This document shows, in pieces, positions 37,986 to 60,863 of a DNA stretch of 64,000 nt. How positions within the stretch are numbered: position 1 is the stretch's first letter; every line of letters starts with the position of its first letter. The notes beneath the pieces were generated by a model. It did not search any database. It had not been told where the DNA came from and was given only the letters and a program-made list of their open reading frames with translations. A program made the translations under genes and the position numbers. Origin of the DNA: a virus; the IMG/VR virus record IMGVR_UViG_3300021474_000004, positions 1 to 64,000 of that record. The stretch is one strand, 5' to 3'.

Positions 37986-39781
37986 TGGCTGACGATTTAA
38001 AATATAATGACATAGGGGAAGACCAGGTAGAAGACTCTAATGACTCAGAGGTAATTACCGGGCAGGACACCCCTGCGGAAGCATACGGTGCCGGTGTCGC
38101 CGCTTACCAGCAGGCTGCAAGAAAAAATAAAGACAACGGCTCAACTCCGTATAGCCCCATAGCCGCAGCCCTTTCCAGAACACGCAACAGTGCGCAACAG
38201 ATTCCGGGAGTCCCCGGAAGTATTTCTACAGACCCTGGTACACCAGGGATAACAAGAGACCAGGCATATCCTTCCGCTCCTGTAAGGATGCAGGATTTGC
38301 CGGGAAGGTATTTTGGTGCCACTCCTATATTTCTTGGTGGCCAGCCACTGTATCCTGTATCATTGGAAGAAGCCCGTAGGCGTTCCAATAATGATTACAT
38401 GGCGTCACAGGAACAGGCAAGGCAACAGAATGAAAACACGCTGTTCACAAATCTTACAAGGCAAAAGGTAGCCCCTGCATACCAGGAAAAGGCGGATAAG
38501 ATGCTGGATGACCTTTATGATGATTACTCAAAAACATTTGCGCAGAAAGGAAGATATGGTGCAGTAGCCGCTTATAACGACCCTAATAGCCCTGAGTTCA
38601 AAGAGTTTACACAGAAGTACCATAACTACCTGCAATCTACAGAGGCCATCAATCACATGGACACTCTTTTGTCGCAGGCGCAACAACGTCCACCCGATGA
38701 ATTATCCCCCGCTACCAAAGCCCAAATTATAAAATTCCAGACCGGAGGGTTTATGAACCCGGACGGCACTGTTGATACACAGACCCTACAAAAGTCTTAT
38801 GTTGACCTGGCTAAATATATGGGCTATGATGGTATTATAAAAAGCATTGCACCCTATATAGCAAAGGATAGTGAATCATTTTTCCAGCAAGGAGCCAAAG
38901 ATGCAAACGGGAAAGAAATATCTCCTCTTGATAATGACCACCAGTTTATAACAGAGGTTAAGAAAAATCCAAATTGGGACAAGCTCATTGATAGTAAGTA
39001 TGTTCCTATGCTGCTTAGTCATGCCGGATTAAACCCTGCTCTCAATGACCCTAAAGCAGCGCACGATTATCTTAAGCAGATACTTCCTGAGTTCGTAGAA
39101 AAGCATTTCTATGATGTGCAAAGGTCTTCTGCAAGTGCCGGAGAAAATAAGGTGGCCAATGAAGGTAATTGGGTAGTTGATTTTGCCAACCAGGTAAGAG
39201 GCAGTAATGTAGATGGAGCCGTTCACACCGGCGGAGAAAATGATAACAACCCTCGCGGTGTGATGATGCAGGCTCCGGGAGACATGTCTACCAATATCAC
39301 TAATCCTAATTTCTTAAAATATATTGTAACAGGACAGGATGCCAACGGCAACGCTATTACAGCCCAGGACACCCGCAAAACAATAGTTAATCCTATATCC
39401 GGTTTATGGAAGGACAATTCCACCGGAGATATATATAAAGTTCCTGCTGCTGCCAAAAATCCAACTACAGGAGATATTGATTGGGGGCAGGTACGCACTC
39501 CGGCTAATAAAGTAACTAATATGTGGACGGATGTAATAGTTCCGTATTACAGAAGTGTAGGAGGGACTGGGGCAGAAACTAAATTGACCCAGATTCAAAA
39601 GAAAATGTGGACACAGCAACCGCAGGAAGCACAGGCTCTTGGTATTCCTCCACTCCCTAAAGGTGGAAATGCAGCCCCGGCAGCATCTGCCCCGGCTAAA
39701 ACTATAGTAAGAACAGGAGTTGACAAGACAGGGAAAAAAGTAGTTCAATATTCAGACGGTACTGTAGGATATGCCCAATAA
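37985..39781 (+). CDS. Internal virion protein, middle
   Basis: 598 residues. Acidic N-terminus, Pro-rich region (ASIPG-type PGVPGS, TPGITRD), then a helical body. No enzymatic motif visible. Likely ejected with the DNA or structural, inferred from place in the block. Overlaps the next gene by 11 bases. Confidence 0.6.
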   Translation: MADDLKYNDIGEDQVEDSNDSEVITGQDTPAEAYGAGVAAYQQAARKNKDNGSTPYSPIAAALSRTRNSAQQIPGVPGSISTDPGTPGITRDQAYPSAPVRMQDLPGRYFGATPIFLGGQPLYPVSLEEARRRSNNDYMASQEQARQQNENTLFTNLTRQKVAPAYQEKADKMLDDLYDDYSKTFAQKGRYGAVAAYNDPNSPEFKEFTQKYHNYLQSTEAINHMDTLLSQAQQRPPDELSPATKAQIIKFQTGGFMNPDGTVDTQTLQKSYVDLAKYMGYDGIIKSIAPYIAKDSESFFQQGAKDANGKEISPLDNDHQFITEVKKNPNWDKLIDSKYVPMLLSHAGLNPALNDPKAAHDYLKQILPEFVEKHFYDVQRSSASAGENKVANEGNWVVDFANQVRGSNVDGAVHTGGENDNNPRGVMMQAPGDMSTNITNPNFLKYIVTGQDANGNAITAQDTRKTIVNPISGLWKDNSTGDIYKVPAAAKNPTTGDIDWGQVRTPANKVTNMWTDVIVPYYRSVGGTGAETKLTQIQKKMWTQQPQEAQALGIPPLPKGGNAAPAASAPAKTIVRTGVDKTGKKVVQYSDGTVGYAQ

Positions 39782-42700
39782 TAAAAAACCAGACCCGCAG
39801 GATATACAGTGGGACGCTCCGCATCCAAGTGATGTAACCTGGGATACACCCGCCACACCCCAGCCAGCTCCTGCCATGCCTGCACCTGCCCAGCAGGGAG
39901 GCAACATTGTACCTATGTGGTCTCATCAACAGGAGCCTGCACCTAATGCGCCGCTTGCATCTACTAACTATGGCGTGTCAGAAACAAATCAAAATGCACC
40001 TGCGCAGCCCCCTTTAGAGTCTTCGGTTCCCGGTCAGCCAGATGCAACAGACAAGGCTCTTAAAAGGGCTAACGATTTTATAGACCAGGCGTCTGAGTTT
40101 TTACCGGAAGGAAATGTAAAGGATGTATCAACGCTGGCAGCAAAAGGTGCATTAGGAGCTGTCCAACAATTTAAGCAAGGTTCAGAACAGGTAGCACAGG
40201 CCGGAGGTGTTCAGCAGGGAGCACAAGCTATTCCCACTTCGCAGAATGCACAGGTAGAACAGGATGCCTCAAAAGAAAATGTCGCATATAGTGGCGTAGC
40301 CACAATCGTAGGTCTTGGCAAAATGCTTATGGGCGTAGGGGCTCTTACTGTACCTGAAATTAATGCCTGGAACTATGGGTCTGCGGCATTGGCACAGTCC
40401 TCTCCGGGCGTAGCCACTCAGGTTAATAACTTCTTTTCTTCTAAAGCAGAAGATGACCCAAATTCTCCCAACTTCGGTAAGGTGATTATTCCTACAGGGG
40501 CGGCTCCTATAATCCTTGACTCTAATAAGCCGGGACAAAAAGCTGTCCTGGAGTTCCTTGATTTCCTTCCGCAGTTAGTACTTGGTGGTATGATTGCCGA
40601 AGGCGTTTCGGTAGACCAGGCAAACGAAATAGCATCCAAGATTAAAAAAGGAGAGGTGCTCACCCCGCAGGAAGATGCCATTGCCGCAAAAGGAACACAA
40701 ACATATCTGTCAGACCCTAAGAATATTATCACCAATGAGACCCTGGGCAAAATAAAGCCCGACCTGTCAGATGGTAAGAAGGTAGCCGTGGCTCCTCTTA
40801 TTGAACAAAAGCAGGCACTGGAACAACGTAATGTAGGGCTACTTGAGTCTAAGGGCAAACTGGATTCTTCTTTTCATGATGACGTGGATAAAGAAGTTGC
40901 CGATAACGAGAAACAAATAGCTACCTTAACCCAACAAATAAAAACTAAGGCAAATGAAAAAGAAACTACGCCAGGCACTGCGCAAGGTGCCAATACCCAA
41001 GCCGACAACAGACCCGGCGAGAGCCAAGAGGGAGAAGGAGTGGGACAGCAGCAATTACAGGGAGGAGTACAAGGACAACAGCCTGGAGCAGATACAGGCA
41101 CCCAACCTGATACCCAAGAAACTGTTGCGTCGAATGAAAAACCAGGGATAATCAATGCCCCTACAAAGCAAACGTCAGATGCGCTGGATGTTCAAGAACC
41201 ATCCGCAGATGGCAAAGGAATGGGCGTCGGAGACACCCAACCTCAAGGAACTACCGGAAAAGAAGAAGGTAGCGGAAACGCTAAAGGCGCACCGAAAGAA
41301 GAAATAAAACTGGAGTCACATCCTGGTTTTGAAGCCCCTGACCTCAAGGACTATGAAGGGAAAGATTCAGACCTGTTCCCGGAAAGGGAATGGGCTAACA
41401 ATCCTGACCGCGTTACCATGCGTGATGGCAATGAAGTAGGAACAACTTTCCGACAACTGGCCAAGCAGACCCAGGATGGAATGAAAGATGTTAAGGACAA
41501 TGCGCCTGATAACACTCTTATCACCACTCATTCCAAGAATGGCAGGATGATTAATGCCTTAAGAAAAGTGGGTGATGATATAGACCTGGATAGTGATGAA
41601 GGAATAAAAAAAGTAGCTAAGGCATATCTTGCAGAACCCGATATAGAAAAGGGGGAGCCCCAAACCACAAAACTTGATAATGGAAAAACAGTGCATGTCG
41701 CTATGCACGGAACTACCGAGGACGACCTGAAAGATTTTAATTCCGGGCAGAGTCCAGTTAATCTTTCTAAGGAAGGCATCAAGGACAGCAAGGATACAGC
41801 ACAGGCAGTTGAAGATAAAAACATAAGCCATATTATCAGCTCTCCTACAGAGAGGGCAATGAAGACGTCTAAGATTATCCAGGAGCATCTTAATAAACAG
41901 ATAGCTGAACAGAAATCCAAAGAGCCTGTCATGTCCGCAGAGGACTTTGATAAACAAGGGCTCAACTACGGCCTACAGGAAGATGGTACACGTATGGAAC
42001 CTGAGTTAAACATCAAGTTCAAAAAACCTATTACCAACAACCAGATGCGCCGCATCAACGAGGTGATGGATTTACCTAAAGGCGCATTATCCGAAGATGG
42101 TAAGGAGCTTACTATAACCAACGATTCTAAAACAAAGACCCATGACCAATTCATTGCCGACGTCGCAGTCCTCAAAAACAAACTCAATGAGTTCAAGCGA
42201 GTTCCAACAGAAATTAACCAACGTGTTAGGAGACTGGCTTCCGAAGTTGAAGGGGGCACCGAAGCTGCTACACAGCCAGAAACCGGCAACAAGCCAGCCG
42301 AAACTGAACCAGCAAACACCAACACAGTCAATACCGGCAGTGAAGGCGGACAACCTGAACCAGTCCCCGGCGAACCCACTGGGACAACTGACGCCGCCAG
42401 ACCAAACCAAGAATCAGAACCTGTAACACAGGCTGCTGGCTTTGCCGGTGGCGCAGAGCCTCCACAACCACCAGATGTGACAAGAGAGGGAGTATATGAC
42501 GATACGCCTGACTATAATAAATCTTCTTCACCTGTACAGGATTTCCTTAATGATACAAGAAGCGCCCCTAAGTTTGAACGAGATATAGCACAGAATGTAA
42601 AACAGCTCAACGGTATCAATAAGGCCAATACGCTCCGCGCTGTGAAGCTCATGGAAATGCTGCCGGATAAATTTAAAGACCCGGTACTCCAGGAGAATGT

Positions 42701-45047
42701 ATATCACCACATGGAAGACCCAACACTGACACTTACCGCAGACGAGATGGAGTTCAGGGATAAATATGTGGTTCCGGTGCTTAATGAGATTCAAGGGCTG
42801 TATCGTAAACTGGAAAAAATAGACCCTGAATCTGCGGCGGCGGCAATGAAAGATGCTGTTAATTATTTCCCGCGTCTGGCTAAAGACAAGCAGGGAATCA
42901 TTGACCGTATAATAAATGGAACTAAATACATAACCGGCGGCGGCTTATTAGGTAAAACAGCATCTTCTCTTAAAAGCCGTATTTATAAAGCCCTTACAGA
43001 TAATAATGGCAACAGGACGCTTGTAACTATGAAGGATGGAAGGGTTACGGCTTTGCATGGATTTGACGAAGATGGCAATTCTGTAACACAAGACCTGGGT
43101 GGATTTAAAAGAAGTGATAAAGGTCTTAGTACAAAAGAACTGAGAGATAAACAACTTAATGATGACCTGGGCTATGATAAAAAGATGGGCAAATTACAGG
43201 CGGAGAAGAAAAATATCCAACGCTTCGCTGATGACCCTAAAGGACAAAGAAGGCTTGATTACATTGAGAAGAAAATTAATGACCTCAATGCAGCGAAAGA
43301 CAAGATAAATGAACATTATGACGGTGTGCAAAAAGTAGATGACCTTAATGCAGAACGCACAGACCTTCGCAATTCATTAATTACTATAAAGGATAAAGAG
43401 CAAAGACAACAAGTGCAGGCTCGTATTGCAGACCTTCGGAAACAATCAGAAGACCTGGAAAACCAGATGCCTAAATACTGGGTAGACAAAAACGGTAAGT
43501 TTTATTCTATAGGTGAAGCTACAACCAAAGAGATTGAAGAAAAGTCCCCTACTCAATATTATCATACCCCATTTGCAAACGTGATGTCATCCTATCTTGA
43601 CTTACAGAGGGCTGACACAGCAAATACATTTATTGACCACTTTAAAGAATCTCCAGAATTTAGTAAGATAGGCGTTCCTAAAGGCGACAAAACGGTTCCG
43701 GGAGATTGGCGCGAGGTATTACCTATACAATTTAAAGGATATGTTTTCGACCCTAAAACGGCGGCTAACTTAGATTTACTTTATCGCAATGGTAAAGCCG
43801 ACCCACTTCAATCCCTTACTAATATAAATACATTCTTTCGGGATACTATAGTGCTTGGGCCGGGCGTAAAGCACTGGTATAATATTGCTGACCAATGGAT
43901 AAAACAGGGAGGTTTAGTTACAAGGTTAACTAACCCGGTACGCACCACTAAGGCCATGATGAAAGCGTTCCATGATGTATCTACGCAGAGCCCGGATTAT
44001 TTTAAAGCCCTTGAGAATGGAGCAGGGTTAATGTACCGGGAAACGCAGGACGCTTCTAACCTGCTGCTTAAAGTAGCGCTGGAGCAAAAGAATCAGACAT
44101 GGTTCCAGAAGCTATCTGACAAGATGGGGTATGCTAATCCAGAAACATTATTTGAAGCACTTCGCAGCACTTCTCATAAATCTGCATTTTACGTAAATGA
44201 TATGTTGGTTATGCAGGCTATAAACGAAGAGGTTGCAAAAGGTAAGCCGTGGAGCGAAGCTGTAAAGGAGGTTCATAAATATCTGCCGGATTACCAGATA
44301 CCGGCTCAGGTGCTTGGCAGCGAGAACCTTGCAAAAGTCCTTCGCAACCCCAACCTGTTAACATTCGGCTCTTACCATTATAACATCATGGACTCATACG
44401 CTAATATGGCAAACGACCTGGGCAGGGCAATGAGTAATTCAGGTATGAGTGCTGCAGATAGGGGGCTTGCTGTCGACCGGGTGGCCACTGCTGCATTTAT
44501 GCACTTTGCTTTCTATGCAGGACTTACGGCTCTGTATCATGCTGTTGGGGGAGATAAGGATAAAAAGATAGGGTCTTCCGGTGGCACTAAGTTCATGGAT
44601 GATGCTATAGATTTCATTAAAGGGAATAAGAATTTAAGACAGTTTGTTCAGGGGTATTTCATGCCAGCCGTAGGAACACAGGCTGCCGCAGAGCTGATAA
44701 CCAATACCAAATTATCTCCTTACGAATCCGGTAATATATATACCCCCACCGATGTAAACAACCATCCCGGCGAAGCGCTTAAAGATATAGGCAAATACCT
44801 TGAAACTAAAGTAGCACCACAGACATCACAGCTACAAAGCGGCAAACAGACCGCCGGTGATTTTATACAAGACCAATTACTCAATACAAAAATTGACCGT
44901 ACCGACCAGGAGCAGAAGTTTATGCAGCTCCTTCATGAAAGAGACCAGATAAACCAGAAGGTACATGACCTTAAGAAAAAGGGGAAGTATTCGGAGGCCA
45001 CACAACTTCAACAACAGTATAACCAGGACTTGAATAATGCCAGGTAA
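39771..45047 (+). CDS. Giant internal virion protein with permuted histidine-phosphatase-like domain
   Basis: 1758 residues. Residues 1-130 are Pro/Ala/Gln-rich, 190-320 membrane-like and helical, 370-550 low-complexity. Residues about 550-720 carry phosphoglycerate-mutase-type motifs in swapped order: LITTHSKNGRMINAL (His587) comes first, then VHVAMHGTTEDD (His646), LSKEGIKDSKDTA and IISSPTERAMKTSKII (Arg695). The first Arg of the RHG motif is Met. The last 700 residues are helical and resemble large virion proteins that enter the host (segments FFRDTIVLGPGVKHW, LMYRETQDASNLLLKVA). The phosphatase part is by my own motif reading. Confidence 0.6.
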   Translation: MPNNKKPDPQDIQWDAPHPSDVTWDTPATPQPAPAMPAPAQQGGNIVPMWSHQQEPAPNAPLASTNYGVSETNQNAPAQPPLESSVPGQPDATDKALKRANDFIDQASEFLPEGNVKDVSTLAAKGALGAVQQFKQGSEQVAQAGGVQQGAQAIPTSQNAQVEQDASKENVAYSGVATIVGLGKMLMGVGALTVPEINAWNYGSAALAQSSPGVATQVNNFFSSKAEDDPNSPNFGKVIIPTGAAPIILDSNKPGQKAVLEFLDFLPQLVLGGMIAEGVSVDQANEIASKIKKGEVLTPQEDAIAAKGTQTYLSDPKNIITNETLGKIKPDLSDGKKVAVAPLIEQKQALEQRNVGLLESKGKLDSSFHDDVDKEVADNEKQIATLTQQIKTKANEKETTPGTAQGANTQADNRPGESQEGEGVGQQQLQGGVQGQQPGADTGTQPDTQETVASNEKPGIINAPTKQTSDALDVQEPSADGKGMGVGDTQPQGTTGKEEGSGNAKGAPKEEIKLESHPGFEAPDLKDYEGKDSDLFPEREWANNPDRVTMRDGNEVGTTFRQLAKQTQDGMKDVKDNAPDNTLITTHSKNGRMINALRKVGDDIDLDSDEGIKKVAKAYLAEPDIEKGEPQTTKLDNGKTVHVAMHGTTEDDLKDFNSGQSPVNLSKEGIKDSKDTAQAVEDKNISHIISSPTERAMKTSKIIQEHLNKQIAEQKSKEPVMSAEDFDKQGLNYGLQEDGTRMEPELNIKFKKPITNNQMRRINEVMDLPKGALSEDGKELTITNDSKTKTHDQFIADVAVLKNKLNEFKRVPTEINQRVRRLASEVEGGTEAATQPETGNKPAETEPANTNTVNTGSEGGQPEPVPGEPTGTTDAARPNQESEPVTQAAGFAGGAEPPQPPDVTREGVYDDTPDYNKSSSPVQDFLNDTRSAPKFERDIAQNVKQLNGINKANTLRAVKLMEMLPDKFKDPVLQENVYHHMEDPTLTLTADEMEFRDKYVVPVLNEIQGLYRKLEKIDPESAAAAMKDAVNYFPRLAKDKQGIIDRIINGTKYITGGGLLGKTASSLKSRIYKALTDNNGNRTLVTMKDGRVTALHGFDEDGNSVTQDLGGFKRSDKGLSTKELRDKQLNDDLGYDKKMGKLQAEKKNIQRFADDPKGQRRLDYIEKKINDLNAAKDKINEHYDGVQKVDDLNAERTDLRNSLITIKDKEQRQQVQARIADLRKQSEDLENQMPKYWVDKNGKFYSIGEATTKEIEEKSPTQYYHTPFANVMSSYLDLQRADTANTFIDHFKESPEFSKIGVPKGDKTVPGDWREVLPIQFKGYVFDPKTAANLDLLYRNGKADPLQSLTNINTFFRDTIVLGPGVKHWYNIADQWIKQGGLVTRLTNPVRTTKAMMKAFHDVSTQSPDYFKALENGAGLMYRETQDASNLLLKVALEQKNQTWFQKLSDKMGYANPETLFEALRSTSHKSAFYVNDMLVMQAINEEVAKGKPWSEAVKEVHKYLPDYQIPAQVLGSENLAKVLRNPNLLTFGSYHYNIMDSYANMANDLGRAMSNSGMSAADRGLAVDRVATAAFMHFAFYAGLTALYHAVGGDKDKKIGSSGGTKFMDDAIDFIKGNKNLRQFVQGYFMPAVGTQAAAELITNTKLSPYESGNIYTPTDVNNHPGEALKDIGKYLETKVAPQTSQLQSGKQTAGDFIQDQLLNTKIDRTDQEQKFMQLLHERDQINQKVHDLKKKGKYSEATQLQQQYNQDLNNAR

Positions 45048-45065: not shown

Positions 45066-45293
45066 ATGTATCAAATGCTACTAACACTACTTGCTGAACT
45101 GGGCGCACGTCAGCATAAATTGATTGTTACATTCGGGAAGACCCTCACAGAAGAGGATTTAATTTCTATGGAGCTCACTATATTTTCCAAAAATGTACAT
45201 AAGTTTACTTCTGTTAAATTCAACAAGGATAAAGATGCAGCGCTGGATGCAGCATCAAAAGAAGTACTTGTCAAGATTCTTAAAGATTTCTAA
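45066..45293 (+). CDS. Hypothetical protein, 75 residues
   Basis: Helical, Lys-rich protein (KHLIVTFGKTL then ISMELTIFSKN) of unknown role, last gene of the rightward block. Its stop overlaps the stop of the opposing DUF5675-like gene (45290-45293). Confidence 0.6.
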   Translation: MYQMLLTLLAELGARQHKLIVTFGKTLTEEDLISMELTIFSKNVHKFTSVKFNKDKDAALDAASKEVLVKILKDF

Positions 45294-45733
45294 ACCGTCT
45301 CCCCTACAGCATGCACCGTAAGCATGAATGGTTCTCCGCCAAACAAATCATGTATAGCATCGAAGGCGACAGTACTGCTGAGTATATCGGGCTCTGTGTC
45401 ACCGGGCAGTTCTCCATAAGACAATCCGGGAGCAACACAGCCCTCAAGCTGAGATACCTTATTGGCCGGGTGAATCCTGATACCGGAACGGTTAGGAACA
45501 TTCTGTAACTCATACGTGAATACATTATGCCCTGCCAGGATAGTAAGGTGCGGACTAAGATTCCATATACACTGGTAAACTCCTGGTGGAATACAACTGA
45601 CATCCGGGTCGTTATTTAACCACGGGCGCTCCAGGGTAAGGCATTTATATTGCCCTGTCTGGCTATTCCCTGTAAATGAACCACGGGTTTCTGTACCATT
45701 ATCCGTGTTGCGGTATAGGTCTGCTGTATTCAT
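45290..45733 (-). CDS. DUF5675-like protein of the lysis region
   Basis: 147 residues with the family run TLERPWLNNDPDVSCIPPGVY, VPNRSGIRIHPANKV, EGCVAPG. This unnamed family occurs in phage lysis cassettes and in bacteria; an enzymatic or wall-binding role has been suggested but not settled. It is the only candidate for a wall-acting protein in this cassette. Confidence 0.75.
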   Translation of the reverse strand: MNTADLYRNTDNGTETRGSFTGNSQTGQYKCLTLERPWLNNDPDVSCIPPGVYQCIWNLSPHLTILAGHNVFTYELQNVPNRSGIRIHPANKVSQLEGCVAPGLSYGELPGDTEPDILSSTVAFDAIHDLFGGEPFMLTVHAVGETV

Positions 45734-45930
45734 GATTTTTTATTTTCAAGTGCGGCTAAACGTTTTGTTATTTCGTCCCTGACAAACCGTTCCATTTCAT
45801 CTTTGCAATCATTAAGCTCCTGCTGTAAGGCAGACCTGTCAGCCTTAGCTGCCTTCTTGCTTTGATTGTACTGGTTCATAATAAGAGTTATCACACTTAT
45901 TATTATTGCTATGAGCGCTCCTTTATCCAT
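45730..45930 (-). CDS. Small coiled-coil membrane protein
   Basis: 66 residues from ATG 45930: MDKGALIAIIISVITLI, then a charged coiled coil (KKAAKADRSALQQELNDCKD). One span plus coil is the shape of an inner-membrane spanin or holin helper. Its stop is TGA in ATGA overlap with the next gene. Confidence 0.55.
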   Translation of the reverse strand: MDKGALIAIIISVITLIMNQYNQSKKAAKADRSALQQELNDCKDEMERFVRDEITKRLAALENKKS

Positions 45931-46324
45931 CGTCCCTGTGATAAATATAAATAGCCCAACCATGAAAAAAGGCAAAGCCAACCTTGAATAAATAATCAAT
46001 CCCCTGTGCCATCTGGCCGTGAGATACAGCAACAAATGAATTTACCATTACCCACACGGCAACCTGTGTAAGTATTAATTGCTGAGGGAACAATAACAGC
46101 ACGCCAAGTAATGAATGTTTAATATTCATGGCTATAAACGGAAGGAAAGAAGATGTAAAAAGAACCGTACACATAATAGTATATCCCGGTATGATTTCAT
46201 GTATAGCCCTTATGCTAAGTGTGTCTTTAGAAGCCGGGTCTACAAGCAATGCTACAGCCCACCATATATGAACCAGTGACGAATAGTATATTATCGCCTT
46301 TTTGTATATGCTAAATGTGAGCAT
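45923..46324 (-). CDS. Multi-span membrane protein, lysis-region
   Basis: 133 residues from ATG 46324 (TAATG coupling to the gene upstream); four hydrophobic segments, including HIWWAVALLVDP, TIMCTVLFTSSFLPFIAM and LLGVLLLFPQQLILTQVAV. Holin-like by place, but larger than most holins. A longer start at 46339 is possible. Confidence 0.6.
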   Translation of the reverse strand: MLTFSIYKKAIIYYSSLVHIWWAVALLVDPASKDTLSIRAIHEIIPGYTIMCTVLFTSSFLPFIAMNIKHSLLGVLLLFPQQLILTQVAVWVMVNSFVAVSHGQMAQGIDYLFKVGFAFFHGWAIYIYHRDDG

Positions 46325-46512
46325 TAGTATCTGTGCCAATGTCCAAGTCCGTCAAATACCCCGAAGTATTGCAATACAATTAGAAGCAGTATTAAAAGGA
46401 GTATTACTATTACCCAATTTTTTCTTGGTTGAGCTATAGGCAGGTAATTTATTATAGCTCCGGCTATAACAATTACAATGGCTAACAATATTAAAAATTC
46501 AATTATTCCCAT
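46324..46512 (-). CDS. Two-span membrane protein (Thivi_2564-like)
   Basis: 62 residues with two long hydrophobic segments, LLAIVIVIAGAIINYLPI and WVIVILLLILLLIVLQYFG, separated by a short basic turn. Small bacterial and phage proteins with this plan (Thivi_2564 family) are of unknown function; a holin role fits its position. Confidence 0.55.
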   Translation of the reverse strand: MGIIEFLILLAIVIVIAGAIINYLPIAQPRKNWVIVILLLILLLIVLQYFGVFDGLGHWHRY

Positions 46513-46522
46513 GTGAATTATT

Positions 46523-46834
46523 TTAAGGCGTTACAGTTGTGGTTGCGGGTGGGGCAGTAGCTGCGGCATCAGCATTAGATTGCATTTTTTCCCAATCCAC
46601 AGAAAGCATAGAAAGAATAGACCCTATTCCACCTATAGCCACTCCATGAGTTGCCAGGGTATAAACGAAGTGTGGGAGCCCGGTCATGACCAGGACGCTG
46701 CCACTTGCTCCGCCAATTGTTAAAAGGATGGCCAGCATCTTCTTCCAGAATACAGGCATTGGCGCTTTAATTCGTTGCCACAGGGAGCGAATTGTTATCT
46801 TGTCCCTGTTGGCCAGCAGACTTAGGTTGTTCAT
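46523..46834 (-). CDS. Holin-like protein, 103 residues
   Basis: Cytoplasmic N-terminus, two hydrophobic segments (MLAILLTIGGASGSVLVM and LATHGVAIGGIGSILSML) and an Ala/Thr-rich C-terminus. This is the common plan of Bacteroidota phage holins in a lysis cassette. Its start lies inside the small gene 46767-46919. Confidence 0.6.
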   Translation of the reverse strand: MNNLSLLANRDKITIRSLWQRIKAPMPVFWKKMLAILLTIGGASGSVLVMTGLPHFVYTLATHGVAIGGIGSILSMLSVDWEKMQSNADAAATAPPATTTVTP

Positions 46835-46919
46835 GTCGGATTGGTTTTTTTCTTCTGAATGCGTGAATTAGAAACAAAAGTATTAATACGTCGAAAATTA
46901 AGAAAACTATTTCTTTCAT
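46767..46919 (-). CDS. 50-residue membrane protein overlapping the holin gene
   Basis: ATG at 46919 to TAA at 46767, in another frame from the holin-like gene for its last 68 bases. MKEIVFLIFDVLILLFLIHAF gives one span and a polar tail. It is coupled to the upstream gene by ATGA. Overlapping small membrane genes are common as spanins or holin inhibitors, but no lipobox is seen. Confidence 0.5.
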   Translation of the reverse strand: MKEIVFLIFDVLILLFLIHAFRRKKPIRHEQPKSAGQQGQDNNSLPVATN

Positions 46920-47215
46920 AGAAATTGAGATTTGAACAGTGAATTGTCATCATCTGCACGTATAAATTTATCGCGCTCCATAGCCTCTTTTATCTTTTCC
47001 CGGTAGGCTGACTTATATTCTTCCCCTATACTGCTTTCGCTAAGAACCTCATGTATGGTCATTACAGTAAGGCGTAACAACTTATTCTCCCTCTGCCTCC
47101 TGTTTGCCTTAAGGTTAAGGGTTCTTAATGCCCAGGCACAGGTACCCATAAATATAGTTATAACCAGGTCTTTAACCAGGGCTACATTATCATCAGAGAG
47201 TATGTCAAGCAGCAT
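46916..47215 (-). CDS. Membrane protein with charged tail, lysis-region
   Basis: 99 residues. N-terminal hydrophobic helix (LVKDLVITIFMGTCAWALRTL) and a long charged helix (KANRRQRENKLLRLTVM). Spanin-like plan, single span with periplasmic or cytoplasmic coil. No signal peptide cleavage site. Confidence 0.55.
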   Translation of the reverse strand: MLLDILSDDNVALVKDLVITIFMGTCAWALRTLNLKANRRQRENKLLRLTVMTIHEVLSESSIGEEYKSAYREKIKEAMERDKFIRADDDNSLFKSQFL

Positions 47216-54920: not shown

Positions 54921-55379
54921 ATGTGGGAACGATTCAGACACAGGTGGTTCAGACGACATCACCATCACAAACATCACTTAGTATTCAAATTAATTCACAA
55001 ACATAATAATCACATGGCCAACTACATCACAACCCTGGAACTTCCAGATTCAACCCCGGCTCCCATTACAGTACAACTGGTGGGACTGGCGGCAGACGGC
55101 GTTACCGTACTGCCAATTACCAACATTGCCTTTGCTTCTACAAGCACAGCCGTATTCACTATTGCCCAGGAAACAGCTAATCCTGCCAATGTAGACATTA
55201 CCATTGTAGCTGCCGGAACAGGCACTATTAATGGGACTGCTACATTCTCAGATGGCTCTACCGGGTCAGCAGTACTTACTGTAATCTTCGATGCTATTGC
55301 TAAAACAGCTTCACTGGTATGGTCTTTAGTTAGCCCTGCACCAGCAGCTCCAGCAGCAGCACCTGTAGTTACAGCGTAA
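54921..55379 (+). CDS. Ig-like domain protein with His-rich N-terminus
   Basis: 152 residues from ATG 54921, which has the recurrent ACTAAACTAAAAACGA leader. Residues 1-31 are basic and contain HHHHKHH, then an Ig-like beta domain begins (about 32-120: PAPITVQLVGLAADGVTVL, FASTSTAVFTIAQET, GTATFSDGSTGSAVLTV), then an Ala/Pro tail. Ig-like folds decorate many phage heads and tails. A shorter start at 55014 would leave only the domain. Confidence 0.6.
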   Translation: MWERFRHRWFRRHHHHKHHLVFKLIHKHNNHMANYITTLELPDSTPAPITVQLVGLAADGVTVLPITNIAFASTSTAVFTIAQETANPANVDITIVAAGTGTINGTATFSDGSTGSAVLTVIFDAIAKTASLVWSLVSPAPAAPAAAPVVTA

Positions 55380-56551: not shown

Positions 56552-58783
56552 ATGATATTCCCAACAGTCTCCCAAACCATGCACCCTTCCAGAACCTTAC
56601 CGGAATCCGAGAAAGGGGAAGAGTATCACGTACAGTGGGGTAGGTACATACTATCACAAACCAATAACCCCATGTCGTTGTATAATATATACAAGTATAT
56701 TATCAACTGGAATTTCTATAAAGGCAATCAATGGATAATGAATGAAGACCTTGAGCCGTTCCTTAAGGACGATAGCGGGGATGTGCGCAACCGTATTCGT
56801 TGGTGTTACAATATTATACGTCCTTTTGTGCGTTCCCTTACCGGCAATTCCATTCTTAATTCCTATACAGTACGAGCTTATAACACTTCTGCTTATGTTG
56901 TTAAGCAGCGAGAAGAAGAGAAGGCCAAGCGGCTCCAGGCACATAAAATGATGGAGGGCATGCCTGCTTTAAAAAAATCATGGAGCAGCAAGATGAACCT
57001 GGGAAAGACTCCGCAGGAATCGCTGGATAATTTCAGTAATGATAATATTGACATAGGAGAAATGCAGATGAACGCCCTTTTCCGCAGGGTGGAACGTATG
57101 TCAAACTTCACCATGATGGACGAAGAGATAGTAAAGAACCTGGCGCTGGGCGGAATAGCCACTGTAAAAGAAGAGGTGATAAACGGAGAGTGGTGCGAAC
57201 GCGTGATAGACCCTACTTATACTGTTATAGATACTTCTGCAACCTTGCCCGACCTGTCAGATGCTTCCTTTGGAGGAGACCTTGACCTGGATGATGTGAC
57301 CCAGACCTTTGAGAAGTGGCCGGGACTCACAGATAGCGAAAGAGAAAAAATAGAACACTATGCAATGGCTGCCCAATGGCTCCAGAGCAGGTTTGATTTC
57401 TGGACAAGGTTATTTGGTTCTATGTATGGAAGGGTGCCTATGTATAACTTATACTGGCACGACACAGAACCGCTTAAGTATGGATATATTAAAGATGAGA
57501 ACGGTCTTACCATGTCTATCATCGACCATCCCAACAGCAAGTACACACAGAAGGATATAGTTCGTAAATCAAAACTACCTGCGGAGAAGAGAATAAAAGA
57601 AATGCAGGAGAGCGGGGTTCACATTAAGCATAAAGATATTATACGCTATATCTCTTTCATACCGGCAGAACTGGTTGGAGAAAATATAGTGGGCGAATAT
57701 GGTGTGTATCCTTATGATGAGGTGTATGATGAAGCCCCATTTGTAAATAAGCTACCTTATAAATATGCTACATACGATTACCGTTACGGAGAACTACTTA
57801 CTCCTACCGATACAATAGTTGACCCGCAACGTATGATGAACAGGTATCTTTCTATGATGGAGGGAGCCCTTAATAGTATGCGTGGTGCCAGTTATATTTA
57901 CGATAAGGGTATTATGGCGGACGAGGATGATGGGGAGTCGGAGATGAAGCGCAAGATGAATAAATCAGAGCCTATCGGGGTAGACGCTTCGCGTTACGGA
58001 GGCAATGTGCAGAATGCTATTGTGCCTTATAGTAATACCGATATGCTTAACGCCGCCACCGGGTACACTACCATCCTCAATAATATAAAACTGATGACCG
58101 AAAATACTACCGGGGTCAACCAGTATATGCAGGGGTTGGGAGCCGGTAAGAAATTAGCCGTGGGAGTACAGCAAAGCTCCATCGAACAGGGCACCCTAAT
58201 GCAGCAGTCCTTCTATGCCCGTGTAGCTAATTTGTACCTGGACATCTATAAGAACATAGCTAACAGGGGACGTAAGTTCTACGCAAAAGATTCAAAGATT
58301 ATCTATGAGATGCTTCACGGTTCTTTGCAGGAGTTTAAATTTTTAAAGGATAACAGGTACCAGAATTTCCATGTAGAGCTTCGCAGGGTACCGGATTCCT
58401 TTACGGACATCGACCAGGTGAACCAGATGTTGTTCCAGTTAAAGCAACTTGACCTTATAGGAGATGAACAATTTGCTACCCTGTTTAGTCGCGCAGAACT
58501 TGACCAGGTTTCTTCTGCTATATTGGAATATACGCGTAGTAAACAGAGGTTATCAGACCACATGCAGCAGGAGCAGCAACAGCAAAAACAGGAAGCGCAG
58601 GGTCAGCAACAGCAGGAGCGCCAGGATACATTTAACATGGCCAACAGCGATAAGCAGTTTAAGCTCATGGAGGAACATCTTAAGGGAGCCAATAAAATTG
58701 ATGCCATAAAAGCTAAGGGAGATACCGACCTGGCATACCAGATGCTGATTGCAAAAAGTAAAGAAAATCAAAACCAGGAATAA
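56552..58783 (+). CDS. Portal protein
   Basis: 743 residues. The central helical plan, with NMLGKTPQESLDNFSNDN-like charged helices (residues 155-175), IPAELVGENIVGEYGVYPYD, then repeated helices near residues 430-600, and the Gln-rich C-terminal tail (QQEQQQQKQEAQGQQQ), fits large podovirus portal proteins. It is the largest gene of this part and has the size used by N4- and crAss-like phages (about 700-800). The portal forms the ring where DNA enters and tail proteins join. Assignment is by fold-like pattern and size. Confidence 0.6.
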   Translation: MIFPTVSQTMHPSRTLPESEKGEEYHVQWGRYILSQTNNPMSLYNIYKYIINWNFYKGNQWIMNEDLEPFLKDDSGDVRNRIRWCYNIIRPFVRSLTGNSILNSYTVRAYNTSAYVVKQREEEKAKRLQAHKMMEGMPALKKSWSSKMNLGKTPQESLDNFSNDNIDIGEMQMNALFRRVERMSNFTMMDEEIVKNLALGGIATVKEEVINGEWCERVIDPTYTVIDTSATLPDLSDASFGGDLDLDDVTQTFEKWPGLTDSEREKIEHYAMAAQWLQSRFDFWTRLFGSMYGRVPMYNLYWHDTEPLKYGYIKDENGLTMSIIDHPNSKYTQKDIVRKSKLPAEKRIKEMQESGVHIKHKDIIRYISFIPAELVGENIVGEYGVYPYDEVYDEAPFVNKLPYKYATYDYRYGELLTPTDTIVDPQRMMNRYLSMMEGALNSMRGASYIYDKGIMADEDDGESEMKRKMNKSEPIGVDASRYGGNVQNAIVPYSNTDMLNAATGYTTILNNIKLMTENTTGVNQYMQGLGAGKKLAVGVQQSSIEQGTLMQQSFYARVANLYLDIYKNIANRGRKFYAKDSKIIYEMLHGSLQEFKFLKDNRYQNFHVELRRVPDSFTDIDQVNQMLFQLKQLDLIGDEQFATLFSRAELDQVSSAILEYTRSKQRLSDHMQQEQQQQKQEAQGQQQQERQDTFNMANSDKQFKLMEEHLKGANKIDAIKAKGDTDLAYQMLIAKSKENQNQE

Positions 58784-58784
58784 G

Positions 58785-60863
58785 ATGAAGAAGACAGTAG
58801 GATTAGTACTTGCGATAATATTAGCCTTGATGTTTGTGCTCAGTGCCGGGGCGCAAACAAAACCAATTTCATTTCATTATCATGAACGCCGCGTAACAGT
58901 AAGGCACAAAGGAATAGAATCATTTACACATCCATCGTATCCCGGATATAGGTTTGTGGTGGATTCGGATAGGGTTTATAAAGGTATAGCTATTGATAAA
59001 TTTCACCACAGGGCTATGCGTATGATATATTTATCAAAAGGGAAGGATTCAATTGCATGGCTCCCTATTGATATTCAAAAGGTTCTATGTGATAAAATGG
59101 CTACACCCCCAATGCCAATGCAGTCACCACCTGTTACCATACCGGGTATTGTTCCTTCATTGCAATCCTTGCCGGGATGTCCTTATGTTCTTTATATGAA
59201 TTTCAGTGGCGGCAGAATTTATAATATAAATTGGTGCGACACTGCCTTTACTTGTGCTGCTGCACAATTGACAACAGCTCAGATTATAGAAACATGGGCT
59301 CGCGTAGCAGAGAAATACAGGTTGTTCAATGTAAATATAACAACGGATTCAAATGTTTATAATGCTGCGAAGTATAAAGGGTATTGTATGATAACCCCTA
59401 CATGGCAATGGTATGGGGAGCTACCTGGTGGAGTTTCTTTTGTAGGTGCAGGATGGAATCTTATTGCATACAACCCATGTTTCAGTTTTACTACAGGGCT
59501 TGCTAATACACCTCAGTATATAGCAGAGGCTACCGCGCATGAGTTTGGACATTTGATACCTGGGTTTATTCATCACGGACAATTTAATTCGTCCTGTGTT
59601 AATATTAATCAATACAATCAAGGCCACGGCTCAGGCATAAATGGCTGGGCTCCTATTATGGGTAGCGGGTATGGCTTCCAATGGGATTTGTGGGCGGATT
59701 CTGCCACTACAGCAGCTACCTGTTATTTACAGCCACAACATGATTACAAACAGGCAAATAGCAATGGGCTTACTTATAGGGTAGACGACATAGGCAATAA
59801 TATAAATACAGCAAGGGCTGAAACGATAATCAATAATTCCTTTTCTGATAGTGGTGTAATTACTCCGGGGGATACCGATGTACTTAAGATTAGCACAACA
59901 GGAGGGTCATTAACAGTAAATGTTAATCCGTGGTCATGGAATGGCTCCGGCACATGCCTGCTCCCAAAGATGGTTATAAAGAACAGTGCAGGACAAATTA
60001 TTAGTATTGATACACCTAATACCATTGGTATAACACGGACTATTACCGGCTTGCCATCCGGGTCTTATTATGTTTTTATTACCGGCAGGTATCTTATATC
60101 ATGGCTTGATTACGGGTATAAATTAATTCCGACAGCAGGACAATTTTACATTACCGGAACCATTACACAAACAGCGCAACCTCCAGTAATCCAGGTAAAC
60201 AATTCATCTATATGCAAAGGACAGACAACAACACTGATAGTGAGCGGAGGCTCCAGCTATTCGTGGACGCCGGGGACAGGGTTGTCCGCGACCAGTGGGG
60301 CAACCATATTAGCGTCACCTACTGTCACTACTACCTATACTATCGTTGGGACGGGGTCGAATGGGTTGAGCGGCTCAACCACCTCCATAGTTACAATCAA
60401 TCCCCCACCGACCATAACGACATCTCCATCCTCACAAACAATTAGTGCAGGTAAGACTGCGCAGATAGTTGCTTCGGGTGCAAGCGTTTATTCCTGGAGC
60501 CCAACAGGGCTCACGGGGTCAGACGTAACAGTTTCTCCTGCGATAAGTACAACTTATACAGTTACAGGAACCAGTAGTACCGGGTGTACTTCTACCTCTA
60601 CTGCGATAGTAGATGTGACTACAACAAGCTGTGCTACCCCTGTAACAACATTAAAGTTTAATACAGCAAACAGAACAAGCGCCCTGCTTCAATTCCCTGA
60701 CAATGGAGCGTGTAGTTACACCGGAACAATCACTCCTGCCGGTGGAATTGTAACAATTCAAAAGAGCAGTCCTAACCAGGTGCATGTGACAGGATTAAAG
60801 ACCCAGACTTTATACACCCTGACTATCAATGGCGGGGTGCCGGTTCAATTTAAAACGCAGTAA
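58785..60863 (+). CDS. Secreted metalloprotease with host-type adhesion modules
   Basis: 692 residues from ATG 58785, which directly follows the portal gene. The N-terminus is a signal peptide (MKKTVGLVLAIILALMFVLS, then AGAQ). Residues 245-300 carry the zinc site EATAHEFGHLIPGFIHHG (His252, Glu253, His256) and a Met-turn WAPIMGSGYG (Met292), typical of metzincins. Residues about 460-620 hold two PKD/Ig-like repeats (SYSWTPGTGLS, TTTYTIVGTGSNG) and the end a fibronectin-like part, as in Bacteroidota surface proteins. Such a gene in a phage is unusual and probably taken from a host. It may cut host surface proteins. The zinc-site spacing (HExxHxxxGxxH) is one residue longer than usual. Confidence 0.75.
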   Translation: MKKTVGLVLAIILALMFVLSAGAQTKPISFHYHERRVTVRHKGIESFTHPSYPGYRFVVDSDRVYKGIAIDKFHHRAMRMIYLSKGKDSIAWLPIDIQKVLCDKMATPPMPMQSPPVTIPGIVPSLQSLPGCPYVLYMNFSGGRIYNINWCDTAFTCAAAQLTTAQIIETWARVAEKYRLFNVNITTDSNVYNAAKYKGYCMITPTWQWYGELPGGVSFVGAGWNLIAYNPCFSFTTGLANTPQYIAEATAHEFGHLIPGFIHHGQFNSSCVNINQYNQGHGSGINGWAPIMGSGYGFQWDLWADSATTAATCYLQPQHDYKQANSNGLTYRVDDIGNNINTARAETIINNSFSDSGVITPGDTDVLKISTTGGSLTVNVNPWSWNGSGTCLLPKMVIKNSAGQIISIDTPNTIGITRTITGLPSGSYYVFITGRYLISWLDYGYKLIPTAGQFYITGTITQTAQPPVIQVNNSSICKGQTTTLIVSGGSSYSWTPGTGLSATSGATILASPTVTTTYTIVGTGSNGLSGSTTSIVTINPPPTITTSPSSQTISAGKTAQIVASGASVYSWSPTGLTGSDVTVSPAISTTYTVTGTSSTGCTSTSTAIVDVTTTSCATPVTTLKFNTANRTSALLQFPDNGACSYTGTITPAGGIVTIQKSSPNQVHVTGLKTQTLYTLTINGGVPVQFKTQ

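Follow-up and report, generated by a model that had tools for sequence, protein, structure and literature searches.

The gene at positions 58785-60863 (+ strand) of the window, by which we mean the whole 64,000-nucleotide stretch analysed here, was captured from a bacterial (Chitinophagales-type) secreted metalloprotease, as sequence comparison firmly indicates. The window belongs to an uncultivated virus record of 72,112 bp. We are highly confident of the family and origin of the protein as described below, and its capture, predicted fold and export type are strongly supported, in places directly shown, at the level of sequence.

Origin and domain layout of the protease

The start codon of the metalloprotease gene lies 1 base past the stop codon of the portal gene (56552-58783, + strand; Pfam P22_portal PF16510, 4.8e-16; PHROG phrog_156 portal, 2.7e-17). 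The open reading frame contains no internal stops and is intact over 692 aa. The first-pass annotation had described a secreted metalloprotease gene directly after the portal gene, and this description stands. It had also named a contig-joining artefact among the findings that would overturn it. No sign of such a join was seen, and it was rejected because the frame is intact, the GC content is like that of the surroundings and the codon usage is mid-range among the window genes.

The closest relatives of the protein are secreted metalloproteases of Chitinophagales (Bacteroidota), with 39-41% identity (E 2e-80 to 7e-61). Such scores rule out a chance similarity. The homology covers the catalytic and PPC (pre-peptidase C-terminal) domains and places the protein within this family. 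Bacterial relatives are spread over Verrucomicrobiota, Planctomycetota, Pseudomonadota and Bacteroidota. Comparison with host genomes, which had been suggested earlier as a way to find the source of the gene, pointed to the same group: the best relatives in 396 genomes from the order of Longitalea (Chitinophagales) were 40-41% identical. One complete relative (L205, 1282 aa, genome G095) was 39% identical over aa 118-611 of the window protein (E 2e-80). In the tree, the window protein grouped with G095 proteins (support 97/90), and every other phage copy lay elsewhere. This nesting among Chitinophagales secreted metalloproteases identifies the gene as a captured bacterial gene and bears out the idea of a host-like source. 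The end branch of the window protein is long (1.63), so its exact placement is less sure than its origin. The host of the phage is probably a Chitinophagales-like bacterium.

The protein begins with a Sec-type signal peptide, MKKTVGLVLAIILALMFVLSAGAQ (~aa 1-24; 58785-58856, + strand), identified by eye and by hydropathy (3.37), with cleavage near AGA-Q by eye. It is the only classical signal peptide in the window that is followed by a long soluble part, and the protein is quite probably exported. An unmatched N-terminal insert of ~93 aa follows (aa 25-117; 58857-59135, +), which the bacterial relatives lack; it had no Pfam match, and the alignment with the bacterial proteins L205 and L193 begins only at aa 118-123. 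The next parts are the metzincin-like catalytic domain (aa 123-334; 59151-59786, +) and the PPC domain (aa 334-462; 59784-60170, +). By fold, the latter resembles the s3b domain of clostridial collagenase ColG (Z 14.2, 2.0 A over 105 residues). Sequence comparison then supports two Ig/PKD-like repeats (60171-60620, +) of the kind seen in Bacteroidota secreted proteins; they are ~34-45% identical to those of Chitinophagales-type proteins. The C-terminal module (60621-60860, +) is FN3-like by its sequence pattern, judged by eye. It had no match at E 1e-6 in 298 Chitinophagales-order genomes, and a similar FN3 module is visible by eye in L205.

The domain order and Ig-repeat type are shared with L205, which consists of a signal peptide, metzincin, PPC, Ig repeats, FN3 and a T9SS-type CTD (by eye). 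In contrast to L205, the window protein lacks the T9SS CTD, has fewer repeats, a shifted zinc His and the extra 93-aa N-terminal insert, and has no separate partner gene upstream. Its search for the T9SS sorting domain (NCBIfam TIGR04183 / PF18962) gave no match; TIGR04183 scored above cut-off in bacterial L012 and L016 and in phage L091 and L093. The Ig-like tail proteins 9ncf and 9c2d, matched in the PDB, were rejected as an identity for the protein because the matches span the Ig repeats only and are uninformative on the enzyme.

Pfam, PHROGs and NCBIfam gave nothing above cut-off for the metalloprotease, which therefore falls outside their models. The AlphaFold2 model (91 aligned sequences) had pLDDT >90 over most of the catalytic and PPC domains. 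When the catalytic domain was folded alone (pLDDT 84.5), the VIA-align matches listed were essentially all metzincins, including adamalysins, ADAMs and archaemetzincins, with atrolysin C at the top (Z 9.5). Foldseek alone was weak for this domain (E 0.04). As modelled, the catalytic domain has the metzincin fold.

The catalytic domain contains HEFGHLIPGFIHH, with HEFGH at aa 252-256, and WAPIMG, with the Met-turn Met292 (59658-59660, +). H252, E253, H256, H263 and M292 are invariant across 91 aligned relatives. The signal peptide, the HEFGH site with its Met-turn and the host-like PKD/Ig modules had all been noted in the first-pass annotation, and each was recovered here. The displaced zinc His, the loss of the T9SS tag, the N-terminal insert and the many phage homologues lay beyond its reach. 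The zinc site HEFGHLIPGFIH (H252, E253, H256, H263; 59538-59573, +) is one residue longer than the exact metzincin spacing HExxHxxGxxH. The window protein reads HExxHxxxGxxH, whereas the spacing is canonical (HExxHxxxxxH) in all 53 phage homologues. Its third zinc His is thus one residue further than in all other relatives compared (53 phage relatives and the bacterial ones checked, with one planctomycete row uninformative because it aligned at a different HExxH). The three zinc His, the catalytic Glu and the Met-turn of the metzincin clan are all present. Because of the off-by-one spacing, we call the protein metzincin-homologous rather than a proven active metzincin; proteolytic activity is probable but unproven.

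Homologues in other phages and the upstream partner family

The first-pass annotation had considered such a protease unusual for a phage structural cluster. It is not unique in this respect: similar proteases occur in other phage late clusters. Approximately 50 distinct homologues were found in phage records, from several separate captures. The phage label on the tree requires at least four changes; since gains and losses both count as changes, the number points to several separate events rather than to precisely four captures. The virus status of most homologue-bearing contigs is that assigned by IMG/VR; phage hallmark genes were confirmed on three of them, namely a head protease and the major head protein on L094, the tail sheath and tube on L104, and fibre J on L005. 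The window portal had no match in nine homologue-carrying phages, and the carriers therefore probably do not form a single lineage. The whole-protein scan and the C-terminal scan of viral contigs returned no relatives.

The homologues occur in three forms. Lipoprotein forms are about 300 aa long, have TSP3-like repeats and adjoin small membrane and lysis-type genes. T9SS-tagged forms (TIGR04183 above cut-off in L091 and L093, the tag seen by eye in L125 and L162) are accompanied by a conserved secreted partner gene. Leaderless forms lie in cyanophage head or tail modules, such as the cyanophage-type homologue of L005 that adjoins the central tail fibre J. In Bacteroidota-type phages the homologue is an export product, as it is a lipoprotein or T9SS-tagged. 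These Bacteroidota-type proteins (L091-L172) share a homologous catalytic domain, an export signal and a late neighbourhood with the window protein. They differ from it in their export tag, canonical zinc spacing and lack of Ig/FN3 modules, and the lipoprotein form carries TSP3-like calcium repeats. Within 6.5 kb of the homologue, at 51 loci, holin-like or small membrane genes were present at 18, endolysin-type genes (M15, amidase) at 7 and structural genes at 10; these are raw lower bounds, uncorrected for background.

Among 50,697 named phage records, a homologue was found only in S-CRM01, and the Bacteroidota-type forms therefore appear unstudied. The S-CRM01 protein (SCRM01_042, a pre-peptidase C-terminal domain protein) combines a metzincin with a PPC domain, like the window protein, and is its best viral fold match (E 5.7e-23). 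Its gene lies four genes past the portal in a cluster of head genes, between the head protease and the scaffold. The two proteins are 27% identical; SCRM01_042 has no signal peptide and lies on a separate tree branch. The metzincin-PPC enzyme family is already known in bacteria, and S-CRM01 is the one prior phage annotation. Earlier reports cover T9SS-tagged phage proteins (PMC7468147, PMC6949934) and a secreted metzincin that comes from a phage (PMC8235301). The Cryophage T9SS cargo (PMC7468147) resembles the window protein in being made up of phage-encoded Bacteroidota secreted enzymes, but it comprises glycoside hydrolases and a PA14 protein and no protease, and the window protein lacks the T9SS tag. 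In a literature search, neither metzincins in Bacteroidota phages nor their recurrent capture by Bacteroidota-type phages with several export tags was found described, an absence that is not proof.

Several homologue loci had further features. In L010 (10804-13119), a subtilase (S8) lipoprotein with FN3 is encoded directly after the metzincin lipoprotein, i.e., two exported proteases in one phage. In L102 (9653-10609) and its relatives, a thrombospondin-3-like calcium-repeat stretch precedes the catalytic domain of the lipoprotein metzincins. Homologous proteins are encoded after the metzincin in two cyanophage-type contigs (L004:4125-4832 and L005:11206-11913), with an L,D-transpeptidase (YkuD) match in L004.

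The partner of the T9SS-type proteases belongs to one family of secreted ~145-aa proteins encoded directly upstream of the protease, both in T9SS-type phage loci (L091:4432-4878, L093:9453-9887, L162:1607-2065) and in about 14 bacterial loci (L195-L204, L012, L193, L205). The family had no Pfam match and is a candidate inhibitor or chaperone. Since the pair is found in bacteria and in T9SS-type phages, phages took up the two-gene unit at least once. A search of the window for this family gave no significant match, and the gene upstream of the metalloprotease is the portal gene. The N-terminal insert (aa 25-117) is possibly a propeptide or a fused partner, which is unproven. Its best pairing, with the L162 partner, beat 500 of 500 shuffles. 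Over all 19 partners, the score was reached by 27 of 3000 shuffles, and it was equalled by 10 of 113 unrelated window pieces; hhalign and phmmer were not significant. On these results, the insert as a copy of the partner is not supported.

Possible role in virion release

Our leading, tentative proposal is that the captured secreted protease is Sec-exported late in infection and cleaves envelope or surface proteins, which would help virion release. We infer its time of expression, substrate and effect as follows. The protease would be made late, from the structural gene cluster, and exported by Sec into the periplasm, reaching the outside of the cell during or after lysis. It would then cut envelope or surface proteins and so free virions from the cell and its protein-rich coat, and the PPC, Ig-like and FN3-like modules may anchor it to the cell surface or matrix. 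The nearest working precedent is the secreted phage-origin metzincin Mtz of Listeria, whose gene follows those of holin and lysin in prophages and whose catalytically active form raises phage lysis and virion release (PMC8235301). The Mtz/Tim pair is Gram-positive, lies beside holin/lysin and includes a TIMP-like partner (PMC8235301); it is likened to the window protease by function. Unlike Mtz/Tim, the window gene has no adjacent secreted or lipoprotein partner gene and no holin or endolysin alongside.

A release-aiding role of the window protein itself is plausible but uncertain. Against it, the lysis-like cassette lies ~11 kb from the metalloprotease gene, on the minus strand. The protein may also be inactive, given the zinc spacing, and without a T9SS tag it would have no evident route across the outer membrane before lysis. 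A broader reading is possible rather than probable: phages of Bacteroidota-type bacteria may have repeatedly captured secreted metzincins, in places as a partner-protease unit, and export them in various ways (as lipoproteins, through T9SS or by plain Sec) to serve as a general module for release or surface control; in the window phage the N-terminal insert may have taken the place of the partner or be its fused form. Little is understood of how phages lyse and leave Gram-negative Bacteroidota, whose outer surfaces are rich in protein. An exported protease that recurs in phages and bears host secretion tags is a candidate, open to direct test, for a part in release, in surface remodelling or in exclusion, and such tagged proteases show phage use of host secretion routes.

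An exported protease might instead trim receptors or other proteins on the surface of the infected cell and thereby prevent binding by other phages or by the phage's own progeny. The export signals of the Bacteroidota-type homologues and the tail-fibre-like genes that follow the window gene are consistent with such exclusion, which has been proposed for the T9SS-tagged Cryophage cargo (PMC7468147). We consider it unlikely, as the late-cluster position suggests expression later than exclusion matters most.

Carriage of the protease on the virion or its tail, for digestion of surface layers at entry, is improbable. Ig/FN3-like modules are common on virions, and the window protein bears modules of this type. 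The cyanophage-type homologues also have no signal peptide and lie in tail modules (L005, by fibre J) or in the head cluster (S-CRM01). However, the classical signal peptide would take the window protein out of the cytoplasm, where virions are assembled, and the Bacteroidota-type homologues are lipoproteins or T9SS cargo. The dedicated export tags in related phages (lipobox, T9SS CTD) favour export by infected cells over virion carriage.

It is very doubtful that the protein is a catalytically dead decoy or binding protein whose zinc loop drifted after capture. The displaced third His and the long branch would fit this, but the three His, the Glu and the Met are all retained though the remainder has diverged to 39% identity. 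Least probable is a secreted cargo that digests external protein or matrix for the infected host or population, in an auxiliary nutrient role: the bacterial homologues are secreted T9SS enzymes and Cryophage carries T9SS cargo enzymes (PMC7468147), but the window gene is placed in a late cluster.

Other genes of the record

On the 3' side, the metalloprotease gene is followed by a gene for a 242-aa protein that matches tail fibres and, weakly, a carbohydrate-binding module, and further downstream by one for a tail-fibre-like protein. We read the 817-aa protein at the far end as the terminase, from its position and sequence style. In the comparison with crAss-like phages it gave no useful match, and the window portal matched that of cr10_1 weakly (24.6% identity over 39% of the portal length, E 2e-5). 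Searches with the portal or the terminase-like protein found no useful relatives of the phage.

The minus-strand cassette at 45290-47215, opposite to the structural genes, encodes a DUF5675 protein (1e-22) and several small membrane proteins, and is likely a lysis cassette. Within a 1758-aa protein (39771-45047, +) lies a histidine phosphatase domain (Pfam PF00300, 1.4e-12). A 152-aa protein (54921-55379, +) has a bacterial Ig-like look by eye, with no Pfam match, and is a possible decoration protein. The 72-kb record ends in a long simple repeat (Gly-Asp/Ala-Val coding; L002:13850-14113), which is perhaps the reason why the assembly stops there.
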